DNA of 64,000 bases from Methanohalophilus halophilus (lineage in GTDB: Archaea; Halobacteriota; Methanosarcinia; Methanosarcinales; Methanosarcinaceae), in assembly GCF_001889405.1 (NCBI RefSeq), contig NZ_CP017921.1:1626057-1690056 (forward strand), written 5' to 3'. Positions 285 through 10,311 of the stretch are shown here, piece after piece. Position 1 is the stretch's first letter; each line of letters starts with the position of its first letter. The notes beneath the pieces are model-generated. The model searched no databases. It worked only from the letters and a program-made list of their open reading frames with translations, and was not told the DNA's origin. Made by a program: the position numbers and the translations under genes.

Positions 285-2081
285 ATGGGAGTGGAAAAAT
301 ATCTTGCAATAGCGACATTATTGTTTGTAATTTTATCAGGAATAGGAACAGCAGCTACACTCAATGTTGGTGGCGGTGGATCTGGCAACTACACAACGAT
401 ACAGGCTGCTATAAACGCTGCGAACGATACGGATACAATCATTGTTTATCCAAGTGCATATAACGAGAATGTGGACGTTAACAAATCAGTAACCATAATA
501 TCAGAATCCGGGAATCCTGATGATACCAAAGTTCAGGCTGCTTCTACAAGTGACCATGTATTTGACGTGACCAGAGATAATGTGGCAATCAGTGGTTTCA
601 ATATAACAGGTGCCGCAAGTAGCTCTAAAGCTGGAATATACCTTGGTGGTGTACAGAATACTAATATCAATAATAATGAATTGTCGAATAATTCCCGTGG
701 CATTTTTCTTGACGGTTCAAGATACAATAATCTGAATAACAACATTGCAAATTCTAACAAAGCTGAAGGTATTGAACTTTTGAATTCCAGTGATAATGAT
801 TTGATTGAAAATAATGCATCAAAAAACAATATTGATGGCATTTATATTCGCAAATCCAGCAATAACAACAATCTTATCAATAACACGGTATTGAATAACG
901 GTTTCCGAGGGATCTATCTTGACAGTTCTAACAACAATATTTTGAACAATAATACAGTATTGGACACTGAAACCGAAGGAATATATCTTACTTCATCCAG
1001 TAATAATATTTTATCCAATAATAATGCATCTAATAACAAACGAGGAATCTATCTTGACAAGTCTAACGACAACAGCCTGAACAATAATAATGCATCAAAC
1101 AACAATTTTCAAGGAATCTATCTTCGGAGGTTCAGCAATAATAACAAAATAACCAATAACAATGCATCTCACAACAATAAAGGCATCTATCTTGATGATT
1201 CTAGCAATAACACGCTGACTAATAACAATGTGTTAAACAGCAGCTTTGATGGAATTGAGTTTTCTTATTCCAACAATAACACATTGACCAACAACAATGT
1301 ATTGTACACCGATGATGATGGCATCTATCTATCTAGATCCAACAATAATACGATAGACAACAACAATGCATCATACAACAGTTATGACGGCATCCGCCTT
1401 TTTGAATCCAGCAATAATACGATAGACAATAACAATGCATTTTACAACGGTGATGATGGTGGTTTTTATCTTTCTAGCTTCAGCAATAATAACACATTGA
1501 CCAACAACAATGCATTGTACAACGATAAGAATGGCATTCGTCTTGCTCGTTCCAGCAATAACACACTGACCAATAACAATGCGTCTAACAACATTAATGA
1601 TAATGGAATCTATATTTTTAGGTCTAACAATAATATATTGAAAGGTAATGTCATCTGTAACAATACTAAATATGGTATTGAATTGTCTAATGGTAATAAC
1701 AACACGATATATAACAACTTCTTCAACAACACCAACAATATAGGGATAGATGACAGTACAGGAAACATTTGGAACGTTACCAAAACCCCAGGTCCAAATA
1801 TCGTAAACGGCCCTAATATAGGCGGTAATTACTGGGCACACCCCAACGGTACAGGATATAGCCAAACTTGCATGGATTCTGATAATGATGGATTCTGCGA
1901 TTCCCAATTTGACATAGATTCAAATAATACAGATTACCTGCCATTGACATTGGTAGAACAAGAAACTGGGCCCGTAATTCATCCACAACCCAATTTCGAT
2001 GTGCCGACAGCAAATCCAATGTTAATTATAGGAATGCTAGGATTTGCGGTTGTACTGGTGCTGAGAAGGGAAGAGGATTAA
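285..2081 (+). CDS. Secreted beta-helix (NosD/pectate-lyase-like) surface protein
   Basis: The 598-residue protein has an N-terminal signal-type hydrophobic stretch (about residues 5-24, ending in GTAA). An IQAAINAA segment typical of the first turn of NosD/pectin-lyase-like beta-helix proteins follows. From about residue 110 to 480 there are some fifteen rungs of 20-25 residues with the pattern GIYL..SSNN.L.NNN. The C-terminus has a short spacer, VPTANP, one membrane segment and a basic RRE tail, so the protein is probably exported and anchored. The low-complexity Asn-rich core makes a substrate guess unsafe; such helices often bind polysaccharide or form surface layers. Its leader, C-terminal anchor and 3' flank resemble those of the S-layer-type gene at 11295, although the cores differ. 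The ATG at 285 places the signal peptide correctly. Confidence 0.85.
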   Translation: MGVEKYLAIATLLFVILSGIGTAATLNVGGGGSGNYTTIQAAINAANDTDTIIVYPSAYNENVDVNKSVTIISESGNPDDTKVQAASTSDHVFDVTRDNVAISGFNITGAASSSKAGIYLGGVQNTNINNNELSNNSRGIFLDGSRYNNLNNNIANSNKAEGIELLNSSDNDLIENNASKNNIDGIYIRKSSNNNNLINNTVLNNGFRGIYLDSSNNNILNNNTVLDTETEGIYLTSSSNNILSNNNASNNKRGIYLDKSNDNSLNNNNASNNNFQGIYLRRFSNNNKITNNNASHNNKGIYLDDSSNNTLTNNNVLNSSFDGIEFSYSNNNTLTNNNVLYTDDDGIYLSRSNNNTIDNNNASYNSYDGIRLFESSNNTIDNNNAFYNGDDGGFYLSSFSNNNTLTNNNALYNDKNGIRLARSSNNTLTNNNASNNINDNGIYIFRSNNNILKGNVICNNTKYGIELSNGNNNTIYNNFFNNTNNIGIDDSTGNIWNVTKTPGPNIVNGPNIGGNYWAHPNGTGYSQTCMDSDNDGFCDSQFDIDSNNTDYLPLTLVEQETGPVIHPQPNFDVPTANPMLIIGMLGFAVVLVLRREED

Positions 2082-2400: not shown

Positions 2401-3753
2401 ATGTCTCATAATATTTTAGAAGATTTTCTTTCAAAGCTTTCTGAAAATAAAATAGACCATGAAATTGAACATAACGATGATGAATCACCAAAGATGCTTA
2501 CTTTTCAAATAAAGGGTGGCAGAATGGATTATGATCTAAGATACCCTATTGATGATCATCTGTTAAATTTATTGAATGTTACCAATATTGAAAAAATTAA
2601 CTTTATCCAAGATTATGAGGCAATTTGGTCATCTGATAGAAAAAATATAGAATGTGAAATTAATCTAATTAATGCCGATAATAGACCTGTTCCTACAAGT
2701 TTTTTGCTAAGACGACTTCAGATTTTTAGTGATGAAGATTTTGAAAAATCAAATGGTGAAGATTCAGAGAAATTGGATAGGATCTCATTTCCTTGCAAAG
2801 GAAATATAGATATTTCAATTGGAATTTGTTCTGATGAGTTCGCTATTTTACAATATGGTAAAAGAGATTCTTCACCGTTTTTATTTTCAAGAAAACGGGC
2901 AAATGGAGAGAATGTTGCATCTATAAGACATCCACTAACTTTGAAGTTATCAAATGTCGACGTAGAACAACATGATGATGCAGTAGATATTTTACGAAAG
3001 CTTGCAAACTCACTTTTTTTCCAAATTGATTTGTTGGTTGATGTTCCATTAAATTTAGTACCTCAAAGAGAAAATATGATTGAAAAACGTAAAAGAAGAA
3101 TGAGACAACATTCACGTGTAAAAAATGATGCTAAAATAAACAAGTTGAAATATAAATATGATGACGAGCCCATCTCATCATATTGGAATGCAAAAGCTAA
3201 TTCAAATATGCCTTTATTTCAATTTTTAGCATTTTATCAAGTTGTCGAGTTCTATTTTCCCATTTATTCAAAAATAGAAGTTCATAAGAAAATAAAAAAT
3301 TGGATAAAAGATCCACGTTTTAATTCGAACTCAGATTCTGATCTCTCCAAAATAATTAACATAATAAAAATGTCAAAAATGTCTAATGCTTTTGGAAATG
3401 AAAAAGAGCAACTAAAATCAACTATTACTTATTGTGTAAGTGAAGATGAAATTAAAGATTTCTTAGAACTTGATGCAGCTCGAAAAAAATACTATGTAGA
3501 TAGAAAAGGAAATAAAATATCTATGTGTCATTTTTCATATAGTAAAAAAACTCAAACTTTAATAGAAGAAAATCTCATAAATGAAGTAGCTGATAGAATT
3601 TATGGTATAAGGTGCAAGATTGTACATAGTAAATCAAATGAAAGCGAATATATTAATCCATTTTCCAAAGAAGTAAATCAATTGATTTATGATATAGAAC
3701 TAGTTGAATTTTTAGCCAGAAAAGTTTTAATTGCAAGTTCTACATCCCTTTGA
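2401..3753 (+). CDS. HEPN-motif protein (ApeA-like?), putative defence protein
   Basis: I do not recognise the N-terminal 250 residues of this 450-residue, very AT-rich gene. The C-terminal part is helical and contains R404-C-K-I-V-H409, an RX4H motif of the kind that forms the active site of HEPN ribonucleases, followed by a helix with an INPFSKEV segment. The layout (large N-terminal domain, C-terminal HEPN-like helices) resembles ApeA/abortive-infection type proteins, but I cannot confirm a family. It lies immediately upstream of a type I restriction-modification operon and inside a block bounded by direct repeats, a usual setting for antiviral genes. Composition is lower in GC than the housekeeping genes, consistent with transfer. 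The ATG at 2401 follows an AT-rich promoter-like stretch with no clear ribosome binding site, so translation may be leaderless. Confidence 0.6.
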   Translation: MSHNILEDFLSKLSENKIDHEIEHNDDESPKMLTFQIKGGRMDYDLRYPIDDHLLNLLNVTNIEKINFIQDYEAIWSSDRKNIECEINLINADNRPVPTSFLLRRLQIFSDEDFEKSNGEDSEKLDRISFPCKGNIDISIGICSDEFAILQYGKRDSSPFLFSRKRANGENVASIRHPLTLKLSNVDVEQHDDAVDILRKLANSLFFQIDLLVDVPLNLVPQRENMIEKRKRRMRQHSRVKNDAKINKLKYKYDDEPISSYWNAKANSNMPLFQFLAFYQVVEFYFPIYSKIEVHKKIKNWIKDPRFNSNSDSDLSKIINIIKMSKMSNAFGNEKEQLKSTITYCVSEDEIKDFLELDAARKKYYVDRKGNKISMCHFSYSKKTQTLIEENLINEVADRIYGIRCKIVHSKSNESEYINPFSKEVNQLIYDIELVEFLARKVLIASSTSL

Positions 3754-3964
3754 ACACCAGTGAATATAAAATACTTTATTGTTAGTCATTTAAGACTGAC
3801 TATTTCTTTGTGTATTTTATATCACTAATAATCATTTTTTACAATTTTAATATACTATTTTTGGTTTTTTCTAACACCATACACTATTTTGATATCAATT
3901 CTAACATAAGAATTTTATAATTTATTGCACAATTCTTACTGCACAATAATTTATCGATGGTAAT

Positions 3965-6325
3965 ATGGGTCACAACGAAGCAGACACCAGAGCGAAACTA
4001 ATAGATCCAAAACTGCATGATATGGGTTGGAAAGAGGATCTTATCAGGCGTGAAACTACTGCTGGTGCTGTAGAAATAATAAATGGTGGACCCAGAAGAA
4101 AAAGTGGCAGAGCCGATTACCTTTTGTGTTTACCAGCGGAAAAAGGCCAAAATCCTTTACCTGTGGCCGTAATTGAGGCCAAAAAAGAAGATGAACATGC
4201 GGATATTGGTATTGATCAGGCCAAAGAATATGCCAGATATCTCAATATTCCTTTTGTTTTTTCAACCAATGGCCATCTGTTTGTTCAATATGATGATTTC
4301 AACAAGAGGGTTACTGATGTATTCCCTCTTGATAGTTTTCCGACTCCTGAATATCTCAAATCCTGCTATGAAAATGGTAAGGGTTTATCTCTTGAGGATG
4401 AATATGCTAAACCTTTGATAATTCCCTACAAGGGAGGACAAGCGGAAAGGCGTTATTATCAAGATGCAGCAATCAGAGCCGCTTTTGAAAAGATTGCTTC
4501 AAGGCAGGATAAATGGAATAGGGTTTTGCTATCCCTTGCTACAGGCACAGGTAAAACCAGAATTGCTTCTCAGATACTTTACAAACTGGCTGAAAGTGGG
4601 CATTTGAAAAGGGCCTTGTTTGTTTGCGATAGGAACGAGTTGAGAAGACAGGCTTATGGTAGGATGTATTCTGTTTTTGGAGACAATGTGGATTTTGTAG
4701 AAAACAAGAATCCTAAGAAAAATGCACGTATAATTGTCTCAACCTATCAGGCCCTTGGTATTGACGAAGAAGGAGATCAATCATTTTTCCTTGAAAACTT
4801 CCCACGAAATTATTTTAGCCATATCATCATTGATGAATGCCATAGAAGCGCATGGAATAAATGGAGTATTGTCCTGACAAATAATCCTGATGCTGTCCAG
4901 ATTGGTTTAACTGCCACACCTAGGAAAATAGAAGAAAGCAATGCGGCTGGAAAGGGCAAGGATGAGGAAATCAGCCGTAACAATATAGAATATTTTGGTG
5001 AACCTGTATATGAATATCCATACCATAAAGGCCAAGAGGATGGATATCTGGCGGCCTGTGAGATTGTAAAGAGGCATCCTGACATTGATGATAGGATTCT
5101 CAGTGGACCGGAGATTGTTAATTTGGGTGCTCAGGATGCAAAAACTGGTAACCCATTAACCATCCATGATGCTAGAGATGCTTACGGAAAAAAGAATTTT
5201 GAAAGATCTATTATCTTGCCGGATCGAGTAAAGGCCATGTGTGAAGATTTGATGAAGATGTTTGAGCAGACCGGTGATGTCAGGCAAAAGACCATCATTT
5301 TTTGTGTGAATGATAAACATGCGGGTGATGTGGCAAATACCTTGAACAATCTCTATATTGAAAAAGGATTACCGGAGTGTGAAAAATTTGCTTTTAAGTG
5401 TACTCAAAAGGGTATTTCAGCAGGTACACTGGGAGAATCCCAGGAAATTTTAATCTCAAATATGAGGGGAAATAAGAATTCTCATTTTATTGCAACAACA
5501 GTGGACCTTCTGACCACAGGTGTGGATATTCCCTGTATTGAAAATATTGTTTTCTTTAATTATGTTAATTCACCCATCCAGTTTTATCAGATGGTAGGGC
5601 GTGGAACCAGAATTGATGAGGGTTTCAACAAATATATGTTCAGACTTTATGATTATACCAATGTCACAAACTTATTTGGTAAAGAGTTTATTTCAAGTCC
5701 TAAACCTGCTCCTTCCAAGCCTACTAAGAAAAAACAAGGAGAAAAACAAAAAATAGCCAGGGTACATGGCTATGATGTTGAGATCAAGGATGAAGGGACT
5801 TTTATCCTGATGCGTGATGATGTCACAGGTAAAGAAAAGCCTGTTACTGTTGAAGAATATAAAGAAAAACTGGCAGAGTCTCTTGTTGCTCAGGCCCAAG
5901 ATATAGATCTCCTGAGGGAATTGTGGGTTAAGCCGGAGGACCGAAAACACCTGATATCAGCCCTGCCGGGTGGTACCCAGGGTGCTTATTTGCTGCGAAA
6001 TTTGCTTGAATTGGATAATTGTGATATATTTGACCTATTCGCTGAGATTGGTTTTGGAGTTGCTGCCAAGACCAGAGATGAAAGGGTTGAGGCTTTTGGT
6101 TACAAAAATAGCGAATGGCTCATGTCTCTACCCTCTGACTCTTCAGAGGTGATAAGGGCGCTGGCAAACCAGTTCAAAGAAAACGGCATTGAAGAACTGG
6201 AAAGCAGGGATGTTTTCAGTGTGCCTGAGGTCAAAAATTCAGGTGGCATAAAGGCGCTTGGCAAAGTTGGGATCAAGGTGAATAACCTGATTACTGATGT
6301 AAAAGAACGTTTACTGGCTGCTTGA
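3965..6325 (+). CDS. hsdR: Type I restriction enzyme, R (endonuclease/translocase) subunit
   Basis: The 786-residue protein has the order expected of EcoEI/EcoAI-type HsdR subunits. An N-terminal nuclease domain carries D51 and E71-x-K73 (PD-(D/E)xK type). A SF2 helicase motor follows, with Walker A ATGTGKT at 192-198 and a DECH box at 290-293, then a second RecA lobe containing MVGRGTRID. The C-terminal domain from about residue 560 is of EcoEI_R_C type and should contact the methylase core. The motor would pull DNA past the complex and cut at random distances from the unmethylated target. It is full length with no visible lesion. It starts about 210 bp after the HEPN gene and precedes hsdS by about 96 bp. 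Confidence 0.95.
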   Translation: MGHNEADTRAKLIDPKLHDMGWKEDLIRRETTAGAVEIINGGPRRKSGRADYLLCLPAEKGQNPLPVAVIEAKKEDEHADIGIDQAKEYARYLNIPFVFSTNGHLFVQYDDFNKRVTDVFPLDSFPTPEYLKSCYENGKGLSLEDEYAKPLIIPYKGGQAERRYYQDAAIRAAFEKIASRQDKWNRVLLSLATGTGKTRIASQILYKLAESGHLKRALFVCDRNELRRQAYGRMYSVFGDNVDFVENKNPKKNARIIVSTYQALGIDEEGDQSFFLENFPRNYFSHIIIDECHRSAWNKWSIVLTNNPDAVQIGLTATPRKIEESNAAGKGKDEEISRNNIEYFGEPVYEYPYHKGQEDGYLAACEIVKRHPDIDDRILSGPEIVNLGAQDAKTGNPLTIHDARDAYGKKNFERSIILPDRVKAMCEDLMKMFEQTGDVRQKTIIFCVNDKHAGDVANTLNNLYIEKGLPECEKFAFKCTQKGISAGTLGESQEILISNMRGNKNSHFIATTVDLLTTGVDIPCIENIVFFNYVNSPIQFYQMVGRGTRIDEGFNKYMFRLYDYTNVTNLFGKEFISSPKPAPSKPTKKKQGEKQKIARVHGYDVEIKDEGTFILMRDDVTGKEKPVTVEEYKEKLAESLVAQAQDIDLLRELWVKPEDRKHLISALPGGTQGAYLLRNLLELDNCDIFDLFAEIGFGVAAKTRDERVEAFGYKNSEWLMSLPSDSSEVIRALANQFKENGIEELESRDVFSVPEVKNSGGIKALGKVGIKVNNLITDVKERLLAA

Positions 6326-6421: not shown

Positions 6422-7645
6422 ATGGAAAAGGAAAAACTGCCTGTTGGATGGGAATGGAAGAAGATAAAAGACATTTGTAAAGTTGTTAGCGGCTCTACAC
6501 CCAAAACTTCAGTTCCAGATTATTGGGGCGGAGATATACTTTGGATTACACCAAAAGACCTGAGTCAATTTGAAGGAAACACTATTTACAATACATCCCG
6601 TAAAATTACAAAAAAGGGATATGATTCATGTTCTACTACCTTATTACCGAAAGGTTCAGTTTTGATGTCAAGTCGGGCTCCAATTGGACTTTTAGCAATT
6701 GCTGGAAAAGAAATCTGCACAAATCAGGGGTTCAAAAGTTTTGTATGTTCTGATTCGATTTATAACAAATATTTATATTATTATCTAAAAGCAATAATGC
6801 CAAAAATAAAATATCAAGGATCAGGTGCAACCTTTTCAGAAATATCAAAAACCAAAGTTGAAAATATCAAAATCGTTATTCCCCCCCTCGCGACTCAGCA
6901 AGAAATTGTTGCTAAACTTGATAACCAAATGGCCGAAATTGAGAGGATAAAAAAAGAAGCTGAAAATGAACTAATCAATGCCAATAGCCTTTATAAATCT
7001 TATTTGATAAAGGTTTTTGAGAATAGTGGGAACTGGAATTTCATTAAAATAGGGGATATTTTCAGTACTAGATATGGTATATCAAAATCTTCTGTAAAAG
7101 ATTCTTCTAAAACTTCAGCACTACGGATGAACAATATTACTTATGAAGGAAAATTAGTTACTGATAATATTACTTACTTGGACCTTACTGAAGATGAGTT
7201 TAATAAACATAAGCTAAAGAGACAAGATTTGCTATTTAACAGGACAAATAGTGCTGAATTAGTAGGTAAAACAACTGTTTTTGATAAAGATGAGGATTAT
7301 GTTGCTGTTTCTTACTTAATCGTAGCAACTCCAAAAATAAAAGATATTAATTCTAAATTTATTTCTTATTATTTAAATACACCTTGTATGAAAAGATATT
7401 TTTTTGAAAATTGCAACCGAGCCATATCTCAAGCAAACTTTAATGCAACAAAGCTCTCCAACATAAAAGTTCCTGTTCCAGATTCAGAAACTCAAAATAT
7501 AGTTGTCAATAAAATAGAAGGTATTAGCATTGAAATAGATAGATTAAAAGAATTTTTAACTAAACAAAATGAAACAATTAACCAACTACCTGCCTCCATC
7601 CTAAATGAAGTGTTCGGCAAATATGAAATCCCTGAAGAGGTGTGA
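6422..7645 (+). CDS. hsdS: Type I restriction-modification specificity subunit S
   Basis: This 407-residue protein sets the DNA target of the type I complex. It shows the usual two target-recognition domains: TRD1 at about residues 8-155 and TRD2 at about 190-375. Each is followed by a conserved helical spacer, and the first spacer begins at IPPLATQQEIVAKLD (153-167). The second TRD differs from the first, so an asymmetric bipartite target is expected, but the sequence recognised cannot be read from the protein. Its stop overlaps the probable GTG start of hsdM (GTGA), implying translational coupling. The order R-S-M is less common than R-M-S or M-S-R. Confidence 0.93.
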   Translation: MEKEKLPVGWEWKKIKDICKVVSGSTPKTSVPDYWGGDILWITPKDLSQFEGNTIYNTSRKITKKGYDSCSTTLLPKGSVLMSSRAPIGLLAIAGKEICTNQGFKSFVCSDSIYNKYLYYYLKAIMPKIKYQGSGATFSEISKTKVENIKIVIPPLATQQEIVAKLDNQMAEIERIKKEAENELINANSLYKSYLIKVFENSGNWNFIKIGDIFSTRYGISKSSVKDSSKTSALRMNNITYEGKLVTDNITYLDLTEDEFNKHKLKRQDLLFNRTNSAELVGKTTVFDKDEDYVAVSYLIVATPKIKDINSKFISYYLNTPCMKRYFFENCNRAISQANFNATKLSNIKVPVPDSETQNIVVNKIEGISIEIDRLKEFLTKQNETINQLPASILNEVFGKYEIPEEV

Positions 7646-9192
7646 ATTTGGCTAAAAATAACAGTAGAAATATGTCTGATCAATCCAGCATGAATGGTTA
7701 CATTAAGTCCATTTGTGATATTATGCGCAGGGATAATACAAAGGGTGCTATGGAGTATATTCCTGAACTTACCTGGATGATGTTCTTGCGGATTCTGGAT
7801 GAAAAGGAAGAAGATGAACATCTTCAGAGTGAAGCCGTTGGGGAGATTTTTGAACCTTCTCTGAAATATCCTTATAGGTGGAGAGATTGGGGGAGTCCTG
7901 AAGGTAAGAAAAGGAAAGAACTTCAGGAAGGCCACATGGATGATTTCCTAAATTTTGTAAATGATGACTTAATCCCACATTTGAAGTCATTTGAAGAAAA
8001 AACAAATGCCACCAAAAGGCAAAAGATCATTTCCCAAATATTCAGAAACCTCACTCATACAAGGCTTGGAAGTGAAAAGAATCTGCTAGACGTTCTGGAT
8101 AAAGTTGACCATCTAACGTCTGAAAACATAGATGATACTCACCAGTTCCCCTTATCTCAAATATATGAAGGATTACTGCTGAAAATGGGTGAAAAGAACA
8201 ATGATGGTGGCCAGTTCTTCACACCAAGAGAAGTTATCAGGGCTATGATCAGAGCGGTCAAACCTGATGTCAAACACAATGGGGAATATGCAACATTTTA
8301 TGACCCGGGCTGTGGCACAGGTGGCTTTCTTGCTGAAAATTACACATATCTAACCACTCCCGAAATTTCAGACCTGAAACTCAATGCTTCCGATTACAAC
8401 CATCTCAAACATGATGGCTTTTGGGGTCTGGACAATAGTTTTACGGCTTTCCCTATAGCCCTTGCAAATCTTGTTTTGCATGGTATTGATCAGCCTCATA
8501 TTGGTCTCAAAAACACCTTGAGTGGAAGAGAAACCTATATGGACCTGTTTGAAGGCGCTCCTTACAAATTTGACTATATCTTTACCAATCCTCCTTTTGG
8601 AGGTAAAGAGGGAGACGACTCAAAAGCCAACTTTGCTTTTAAGACAGGAAATACCCAGATCCTTTTCATCCAGCATATTATTGATCATCTGGCAGAAGAC
8701 GGAACCTGTGCAATGGTCATTGATGAAGGAGTACTTTTCAGAACCAATGAAAATGCCTTTTTGCAGACCAAAAGAAAACTTCTGGATGAATGTAATCTTT
8801 GGTGTATCTTAAGCCTTCCACAAAATGTATTTGTAAATGCCGGTGCAGGGGTGAAAACTAATCTGTTATTCTTTACAAAAGGTGAAACTACTGAAAAAGT
8901 ATGGTACTATGATATGTCTGATTTCAAAGTGCTTAAGAAAAATCCTCTGACAATCAATAAGTTTGATGATTTCCTCATGAGACTTCACTCTGATAAGGAA
9001 GAAGATAAGATCAGTGAGAAAAGTTGGTATGTAGATATTGATACTATCAAGAAAAAGGATTACGATATCAAAGCAGTTAATCCTAACATCAAAGAAAAAG
9101 AGATTCCCAAACCTGACGAATTAATAAAGATCATTGAGGAATCCCAGGTTAAGATCAATGAGAGTTTGCAGAAACTCAAGGAATTGACTTAA
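7642..9192 (+). CDS. hsdM: Type I restriction-modification DNA methyltransferase subunit M
   Basis: An N6-adenine methyltransferase of 516 residues. The N-terminal HsdM_N helical domain (about 15-165) is followed by the catalytic domain. That domain has GQFFTPREVI (190-199), the AdoMet-binding motif DPGCGTGGF (221-229) and the catalytic NPPF (316-319). A C-terminal coiled tail probably contacts HsdS. A GTG at 7642 overlaps the hsdS stop; an internal ATG at 7672 is an alternative start that would lose ten residues. M and S modify host DNA; with R they form the restriction complex. No frameshift or missing motif is seen, so the system looks functional. Confidence 0.94.
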   Translation: MNLAKNNSRNMSDQSSMNGYIKSICDIMRRDNTKGAMEYIPELTWMMFLRILDEKEEDEHLQSEAVGEIFEPSLKYPYRWRDWGSPEGKKRKELQEGHMDDFLNFVNDDLIPHLKSFEEKTNATKRQKIISQIFRNLTHTRLGSEKNLLDVLDKVDHLTSENIDDTHQFPLSQIYEGLLLKMGEKNNDGGQFFTPREVIRAMIRAVKPDVKHNGEYATFYDPGCGTGGFLAENYTYLTTPEISDLKLNASDYNHLKHDGFWGLDNSFTAFPIALANLVLHGIDQPHIGLKNTLSGRETYMDLFEGAPYKFDYIFTNPPFGGKEGDDSKANFAFKTGNTQILFIQHIIDHLAEDGTCAMVIDEGVLFRTNENAFLQTKRKLLDECNLWCILSLPQNVFVNAGAGVKTNLLFFTKGETTEKVWYYDMSDFKVLKKNPLTINKFDDFLMRLHSDKEEDKISEKSWYVDIDTIKKKDYDIKAVNPNIKEKEIPKPDELIKIIEESQVKINESLQKLKELT

Positions 9193-9262
9193 CGTTTCCT
9201 TTTTCTTTAGTTCTTGCCACAACAGATAATACATATAGTTTCCATAGTTTTCTTTGATAAGT

Positions 9263-9583
9263 ATGATTGTAACTTCTTGGAACAATGGTAAATTATCTGA
9301 TTCAGGGGCTGGGTATGGTTTAAAGATAGATGAAAATGATAGGGATCAATATTTCAAAAAAGAGTGGGATAATGTAGAGTTGCAATTAATCAATTATCCA
9401 CATATAGTTGAAGTTAATATTAATAAACAATCATTTTGGAGTGGAAATTGTAGGGAACTGATAAACAAAGATATTGGCATTTGGTTAATTGAAAATGGAT
9501 TAGCTCCTTGGAAAAAAGGTCAGCCACCAAAATTAACGATGGAACCAATATCCAAAAATAGATTTTTAGTTAAACCTATTTAA
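9263..9583 (+). CDS. Small conserved-looking protein of unknown function
   Basis: This 106-residue protein begins at an ATG; a TTG nine bases upstream is the alternative. It has a compact, mostly beta pattern with SWNNG near the start, a GYGLKI segment, DRDQYF, a central W-rich SFWSGNCREL and a late IGIWLIENGLAPWKKGQPPK. There is no signal peptide or membrane segment. It lies about 70 bp after hsdM and could be a late member of that transcription unit, or a stand-alone cargo gene. I do not assign a function. Confidence 0.6.
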   Translation: MIVTSWNNGKLSDSGAGYGLKIDENDRDQYFKKEWDNVELQLINYPHIVEVNINKQSFWSGNCRELINKDIGIWLIENGLAPWKKGQPPKLTMEPISKNRFLVKPI

Positions 9584-9606: not shown

Positions 9607-10311
9607 TCAAATCTCCACTTTACTAACCAATTGAGCCCATTGATTGAGTCTCTCCTGTACATGTTTATTCAAAGTAAACGGTTTCCCAGATTTAGCATTC
9701 TGTTTCATATAATGTAGAGTACCCTTTGAGAAACCCAATTTTTTCCACTCAACGTAGGAAATATCAAGAATCAACTGTCTGATTTCCATGTTGTCCTGTC
9801 TTTCAATTTCATATACCGGAGACACGAAATCAACAGTTTTGTGTTTGCCAACAAGGTATTGAGCCAGTTCTCTTGTCTTCAGGAGCAATATAGCACTCCA
9901 TGTATGCTGTTTATTCCTGTATTGAGAACGTTTATTTAACCATTGATTAACTTCCTCAGTAACCTTCCTGGCCCCTGTAGGCTTAACCCTTAGCGCATAG
10001 GTTTCTGTCCGGATAAAATCCTCTTTCTCCATTGCTCCCTTCTCAACCAGTGAAAATACAGCCAGATCAACAATAAACCTGAATAGTTCCTGTAAATCAT
10101 AAGCAAGACTATTTTTGCTCGAATTCATCTCATGCAAAAACCCAACATGAGCATCTAAGCCAACTGAGTTTATGGCCCTCAGACATTCCGCCTCAAGCAG
10201 AGCATAGCCATAGTTGAGCATCACGTTGACCTTATCGCCTGCAGCAAAACGACTTCTGGCCAGATGTGTTCTTTGTTGACAGGAAAGCAGGAATATGTGG
10301 AATGTAACCAA
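9607..10311 (-). pseudogene. cas1: 3' fragment of cas1 (CRISPR integrase), orphan and inactive
   Basis: The 234 residues match the C-terminal two thirds of archaeal Cas1. They include the LNYGYALLEAECLRAI helix, GFLHE with the metal-binding His (H60 here), LAYDLQELFR with the metal-binding Asp (D72), and the trailing GTLHYMKQNA segment. The N-terminal beta domain and the region holding the catalytic Glu of full-length Cas1 (about 320-340 residues) are missing; the first 15-20 residues look like unrelated lead-in sequence. Without that Glu it should not integrate spacers. No cas2, effector cas gene or CRISPR array is visible in the window. It faces opposite to the hsd genes. This is best read as debris of a lost CRISPR-Cas locus. 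Confidence 0.85.

Follow-up and report, generated by a model that had tools for sequence, protein, structure and literature searches.

HEPN ribonucleases are widespread RNA-cutting defense toxins, and PrrC with EcoprrI is a precedent for an arm linked to a restriction-modification (RM) system. HepT, of the HepT/MntA toxin-antitoxin pair, and SO_3166 are HEPN toxins with an RX4H motif, which takes the form RX4HXY in HepT. RnlA and LsoA (RNase LS) carry a C-terminal HEPN domain plus N-terminal alpha/beta domains, and ApeA has a HEPN domain and a large N-terminal domain, with some members found in an RM setting (PMC3710099). A published analysis of HEPN proteins linked the Rx4-6H motif to metal-independent RNase activity, gave N, D, or H as the usual residue after the arginine in HEPN RNases, and catalogued numerous HEPN proteins of the Abi type or linked to RM systems (PMC3710099).

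We analyzed a stretch of 64,000 nucleotides (the window) from the 2.02-Mb genome of Methanohalophilus halophilus. A gene with an ATG start at window positions 2401 to 3753 on the + strand encodes a HEPN-type protein of 450 aa. The first-pass annotation proposed that this protein may be an RNase that backs up an adjacent type I RM system. We consider it likely that the protein is instead a self-contained, single-gene HEPN ribonuclease effector with an N-terminal restraint or sensor, located in a defense hotspot and independent of the RM system.

The gene had been described as lying directly upstream of a type I RM operon. Its position agrees with this description: it shares a strand with hsdR and ends 211 bp before it, and the downstream RM set is complete, comprising hsdR (restriction subunit, 3965 to 6325), hsdS (specificity subunit, 6422 to 7645), and hsdM (methyltransferase subunit, 7642 to 9192), all on the + strand and all neighbors outside the HEPN unit. 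Less in keeping with it is a strong hairpin in the gap before hsdR, at 3759 to 3826 on the + strand (dG -19.8 kcal/mol, z -4.9), which is likely a transcription end. We also considered the hairpin as a repeat element and rejected that possibility; it is present as a single copy in the genome. Upstream of the gene, a TATA-box-like stretch read from the sequence, CTTTATATTATATA (2369 to 2382, + strand, 19 to 32 nt before the ATG), suggests that the gene has its own promoter and a leaderless transcript. The GC content of the HEPN gene is 28.1%, that of hsdR 40.4%, of hsdS 31.5%, of hsdM 38.2%, and of the core 41.6%.

We compared this locus with other genomes of the genus. Synteny with them begins at window position ~13,860 and continues from there; on the upstream side, down to -14 kb at least, only dispersed repeats are shared. 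Two genus relatives carry other type I hsdM genes 3.5 to 4 kb from the same junction (G003:C1 about 880640 and G007:C1 about 1068453). Because synteny breaks here and these two relatives carry different hsdM genes at the same place, the window locus is a variable defense hotspot in the genus. The HEPN gene was absent from all seven genus relatives and from all other relatives first searched, and it was found in 6 of 393 genomes of the phylum, its own included.

Because an R-x4-H pattern arose in 43% of shuffles of the 450-aa protein, conservation of the motif had to be tested; we take the value of the RX4H motif to rest on conservation, since the motif alone means little. The candidate active-site motif, R404-C-K-I-V-H409, is encoded at 3610 to 3627 (+ strand). 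In an alignment of 64 full-length homologues (alignment A2), R404 and H409 were both invariant (64 of 64), and the R and H were kept in all 80 genome-derived and all 15 viral homologous open reading frames (ORFs), as its reading as a HEPN ribonuclease motif would predict. The pattern used for the genome scan covers the region around residues 275 to 284 and does not include the motif, and R404 and H409 were not forced by it. E283, a second conserved acidic residue upstream, was present in 64 of 64 homologues, with both Y279 and E283 being forced by the scan pattern; these two residues were also invariant in alignment A1, in which the other seven rows are BLAST finds made without the pattern. 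The typical Ex3[KR] form was not seen around E283 in this family. The residue after the arginine is Cys in the clade that includes the window protein, where it is the norm (39 of the 80 genome homologues), and is commonly Asn in the sister clade.

We predicted the structure of the full-length protein with AlphaFold2, using alignment A2 as input (pLDDT 87.8, pTM 0.88). The C-terminal part, residues 251 to 450 (3151 to 3750, + strand), is modeled as a helical bundle of HEPN-like fold. When we compared this bundle with known structures using VIA-align, four HEPN toxin chains topped all rows, with Z scores of 6.2 to 7.1, values that a helical bundle can reach by chance and that are not decisive. 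The best match was the HEPN toxin 7ae6 (Z 7.1 over 118 aa), followed by 5yep (SO_3166, 6.8), 6m6w (HepT, 6.6), and 6m6u (HepT, 6.2); the HEPN chains of RnlA (3.9) and Csx1 (3.8) ranked lower. With plain Foldseek, the full-length model had no significant match in the PDB or among viral models, and a PDB sequence search with the protein returned nothing relevant. Because the HEPN-type fold matches and the invariant motif agree, HEPN is the clear reading of the protein, an assignment that is well supported by model and alignment together. The first-pass annotation had named two findings that would speak against it, a model lacking the helical bundle and a lack of conservation of R404 and H409; the reverse was observed for both.

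The N-terminal ~220 residues, previously noted as a large unassigned domain, are confidently predicted to form an alpha/beta domain that is without a clear relative. Modeled alone (pLDDT 88.6, pTM 0.84), this part comprises subdomain 1, residues 1 to 60, of alpha-beta-beta-beta-alpha arrangement (2401 to 2580, + strand), and subdomain 2, residues 61 to 220, a mixed alpha/beta unit that is the putative sensor or regulatory part (2581 to 3060, + strand) and in which A74, E84, and F207 are at least 90% conserved (alignment A4). VIA-align gave weak matches for the N-terminal domain: the dsRBD region of DCL4 was the best (Z 5.6, 62 residues, a weak match assigned to subdomain 1), and ARPC2 of Arp2/3 (4.1) and the N terminus of RnlA (3.5) followed. 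Foldseek found no significant match to the N-terminal model in the PDB. We considered a dsRBD and rejected it after reading the sequence, in which the KKxAK-type RNA-binding signature was not seen.

We then compared the family with profile collections and named systems. The earlier description of an unknown family stands with respect to NCBIfam, in which no model matches any of the 64 members, and gives way to distant links with two other models. The first is Pfam MauJ (PF17419), which matches 62 of 64 members (E up to 0.1, best 7e-16) and aligns with residues 266 to 337 of the window protein, within the HEPN part, at 24.8 bits, under the Pfam cut-off of 28; when 39 genomes were searched, MauJ exceeded the cut-off in three of them. 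The model takes its name from methylamine utilization, but no mau genes were seen around the window gene, and we found no literature on MauJ as a HEPN or defense protein. One homologue, on Priestia megaterium plasmid pB1.3 (L008:1716-3098), is labeled "methylamine utilization protein MauJ" and adjoins a gene for a CHAT-domain protein; for this homologue, the name is probably misleading.

The second link is to DzbB of the Dazbog system (PADLOC PDLC03836), which matches 61 of 64 members (best 3e-13) and the C-terminal half of the window protein at an E value of 7e-10. The family shares a homologous C-terminal region with DzbB, but the match spans only positions 172 to 310 of the 341 in the DzbB profile. 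DzbA had no match in the 39 genomes with a homologue, the window's own included, in a search whose control was also silent. As in ApeA, a HEPN domain is joined to a large N-terminal domain; across 33 genomes, no ORF of the family matched the HEPN_Apea model (PF18739) at E <= 0.001, and 2 of 64 members matched it at an E value of about 0.01, with the window protein unmatched. HepT and SO_3166 share the RX4H motif and include the top structural matches to the bundle, whereas the window protein is without an MNT partner and the HXY form and has an extra N-terminal domain of 220 residues. RnlA resembles the window protein in domain layout, and both parts of the window protein match it weakly in fold and in the same order, but there was no Pfam RnlA match in any member and no antitoxin partner was seen.

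Our scan of genome contigs yielded 80 loci with a homologue, and that of viral contigs yielded 15 homologous ORFs, located on 15 IMG/VR contigs. The closest homologues are bacterial (Bacteroidota and Pseudomonadota) and 33 to 37% identical to the window protein over most of its length; a homologue is also present on a Methanosarcina contig (L068). Searches by tblastn with the HEPN-type protein found no match in phages and two weak matches in plasmids, and PHROGs matches were weak and unnamed. In a quick tree, in which the inner branches are weak, the window protein groups with bacterial and viral proteins in a clade supported at SH-aLRT 98 and marked by RC[KR][IV]VHTK-type motifs, and other Methanobacteriota members fall in a sister clade with the motif RN[SA][IL]VHSK. 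This tree is consistent with the archaeon having received the gene from bacteria, the direction being our interpretation.

We next examined the genomic neighborhoods of the homologues. No neighbor gene was constant in size or spacing across these loci. We took two genes on each side at 43 loci, most of which belong to the window clade. The 143 neighbor proteins of bacterial relatives match 129 PADLOC models at 1e-10, compared to 6 models for a control set of 127 proteins encoded elsewhere in 12 of these genomes; with one control set, redundant models that inflate the counts, and slightly different set sizes, this is a rough contrast and not a statistic. The defense neighbors include Lamassu LmuA/LmuB, bSEFIR, an OLD/AriA-like protein, a UvrD/GajB-like helicase, and PDC-S46, and phage integrases and S24 repressors are also found among the neighbors. 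The bacterial relatives are thus located in defense islands, and the window gene, with its type I hsd set, was aptly called a defense-island neighbor. The suggested survey of co-occurrence with hsd genes did not bear out a link to restriction: using 10 diverse HsdM queries and flanks of up to 8 to 10 kb, some shortened by contig ends, we found hsd genes at 1 of 95 loci. That locus, in Drancourtella (L087:3425-13852), is a same-strand run of hsdR, a PD-(D/E)XK-like gene, hsdM, hsdS, the HEPN homologue, and a HamA-family gene.

The proposal that the HEPN protein serves the adjacent type I RM system as an abortive-infection arm, set off by failed restriction, would account for the 211-bp same-strand spacing from hsdR and for the Drancourtella homologue 13 bp after hsdS, and several RM-linked HEPN families have been described (PMC3710099). 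Nevertheless, we regard it as unlikely: hsd linkage among the homologues is nearly absent, the hairpin intervenes, the GC content of the gene is much lower than that of hsdR, and G003 and G007 have hsd genes at the same hotspot while the HEPN gene occurs in none of the seven genus relatives. A direct link with restriction may still exist, but adjacency is all that we found in its favor. It is similarly improbable that the protein acts as the toxin in a toxin-antitoxin pair such as HepT/MntA. Its bundle is closest to HepT-type toxins, and the island that holds the gene has a HepT/MNT pair at another place, but homologues have no constant small partner gene beside them, the window gene has no adjacent MNT antitoxin (the next same-strand gene is hsdR), HepT does not have the 220-residue N-terminal domain, and the sequence H409-S410-K411 departs from the RX4HXY variant of HepT.

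A function outside defense, in housekeeping or regulatory RNA processing or as a MauJ-like metabolic accessory, is suggested by the name of the nearest Pfam model. We consider this even less probable given the patchy distribution of the gene in genus and phylum, the homologues on viral contigs and in defense islands, the low GC content, and surrounding genes that, as far as seen, are not mau genes. Least probable, in our view, is a HEPN protein that has degenerated or lost its catalytic activity; the Cys that replaces Asn after R404 in the window clade would fit such a loss, but it is the clade norm, and the R and H are kept without exception.

A self-contained HEPN effector accommodates these observations, and we propose the following model for it. 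The C-terminal bundle with its RX4H motif would cleave RNA without metal, as other HEPN enzymes do, probably as a dimer; by analogy with characterized HEPN enzymes, H409 and R404 would promote attack by the RNA 2'-OH with no metal involved (PMC3710099). The N-terminal alpha/beta region (residues 1 to 220) would keep the enzyme inactive until an infection signal releases it, and the released RNase would cause growth arrest or abortive infection. The gene would be transcribed independently of the neighboring type I RM genes. It is an accessory gene with bacterial kin that was probably acquired from bacteria into a hypervariable defense hotspot.

More tentatively, the protein may represent a stand-alone HEPN RNase defense family that is undescribed so far and common to bacteria, viral contigs, and archaea, with an N-terminal domain that could be a new type of direct infection sensor. 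The lack of an NCBIfam model, the misleading Pfam name, and the partial PADLOC link to Dazbog make it likely that the family is overlooked or mis-annotated. If it were recognized, the known defense repertoire would gain a candidate system of one gene whose regulatory domain is distinct, and its bacterial homologues, such as that of Pseudomonas rhizoryzae (L013), make this candidate testable in laboratory strains.

Other genes around this locus are recorded here as separate observations. The HepT-like/MNT toxin-antitoxin pair of the variable island lies on the window's own contig (G000:C1) at window coordinates -8813 to -8135 (L123:11244-11922). Window positions 285 to 2081 encode a repetitive Asn-rich surface protein, of parallel beta-helix type by appearance, the start of which is near-identical to an ORF at -11813 to -10227. 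Just after hsdM is a 109-aa ORF (9254 to 9583), followed on the - strand by a solo Cas1 C-terminal fragment (9607 to 10311). A full 400-aa Cas1 ORF, with a 302-aa ORF before it, lies near G000:C1:247904-249106, and no CRISPR array was seen there in 7 kb. Several further partial or degenerate cas1 copies (61 to 89% identity) are found in this genome, and also in genus relatives; together, these copies look like a dispersed, decaying cas1 element.
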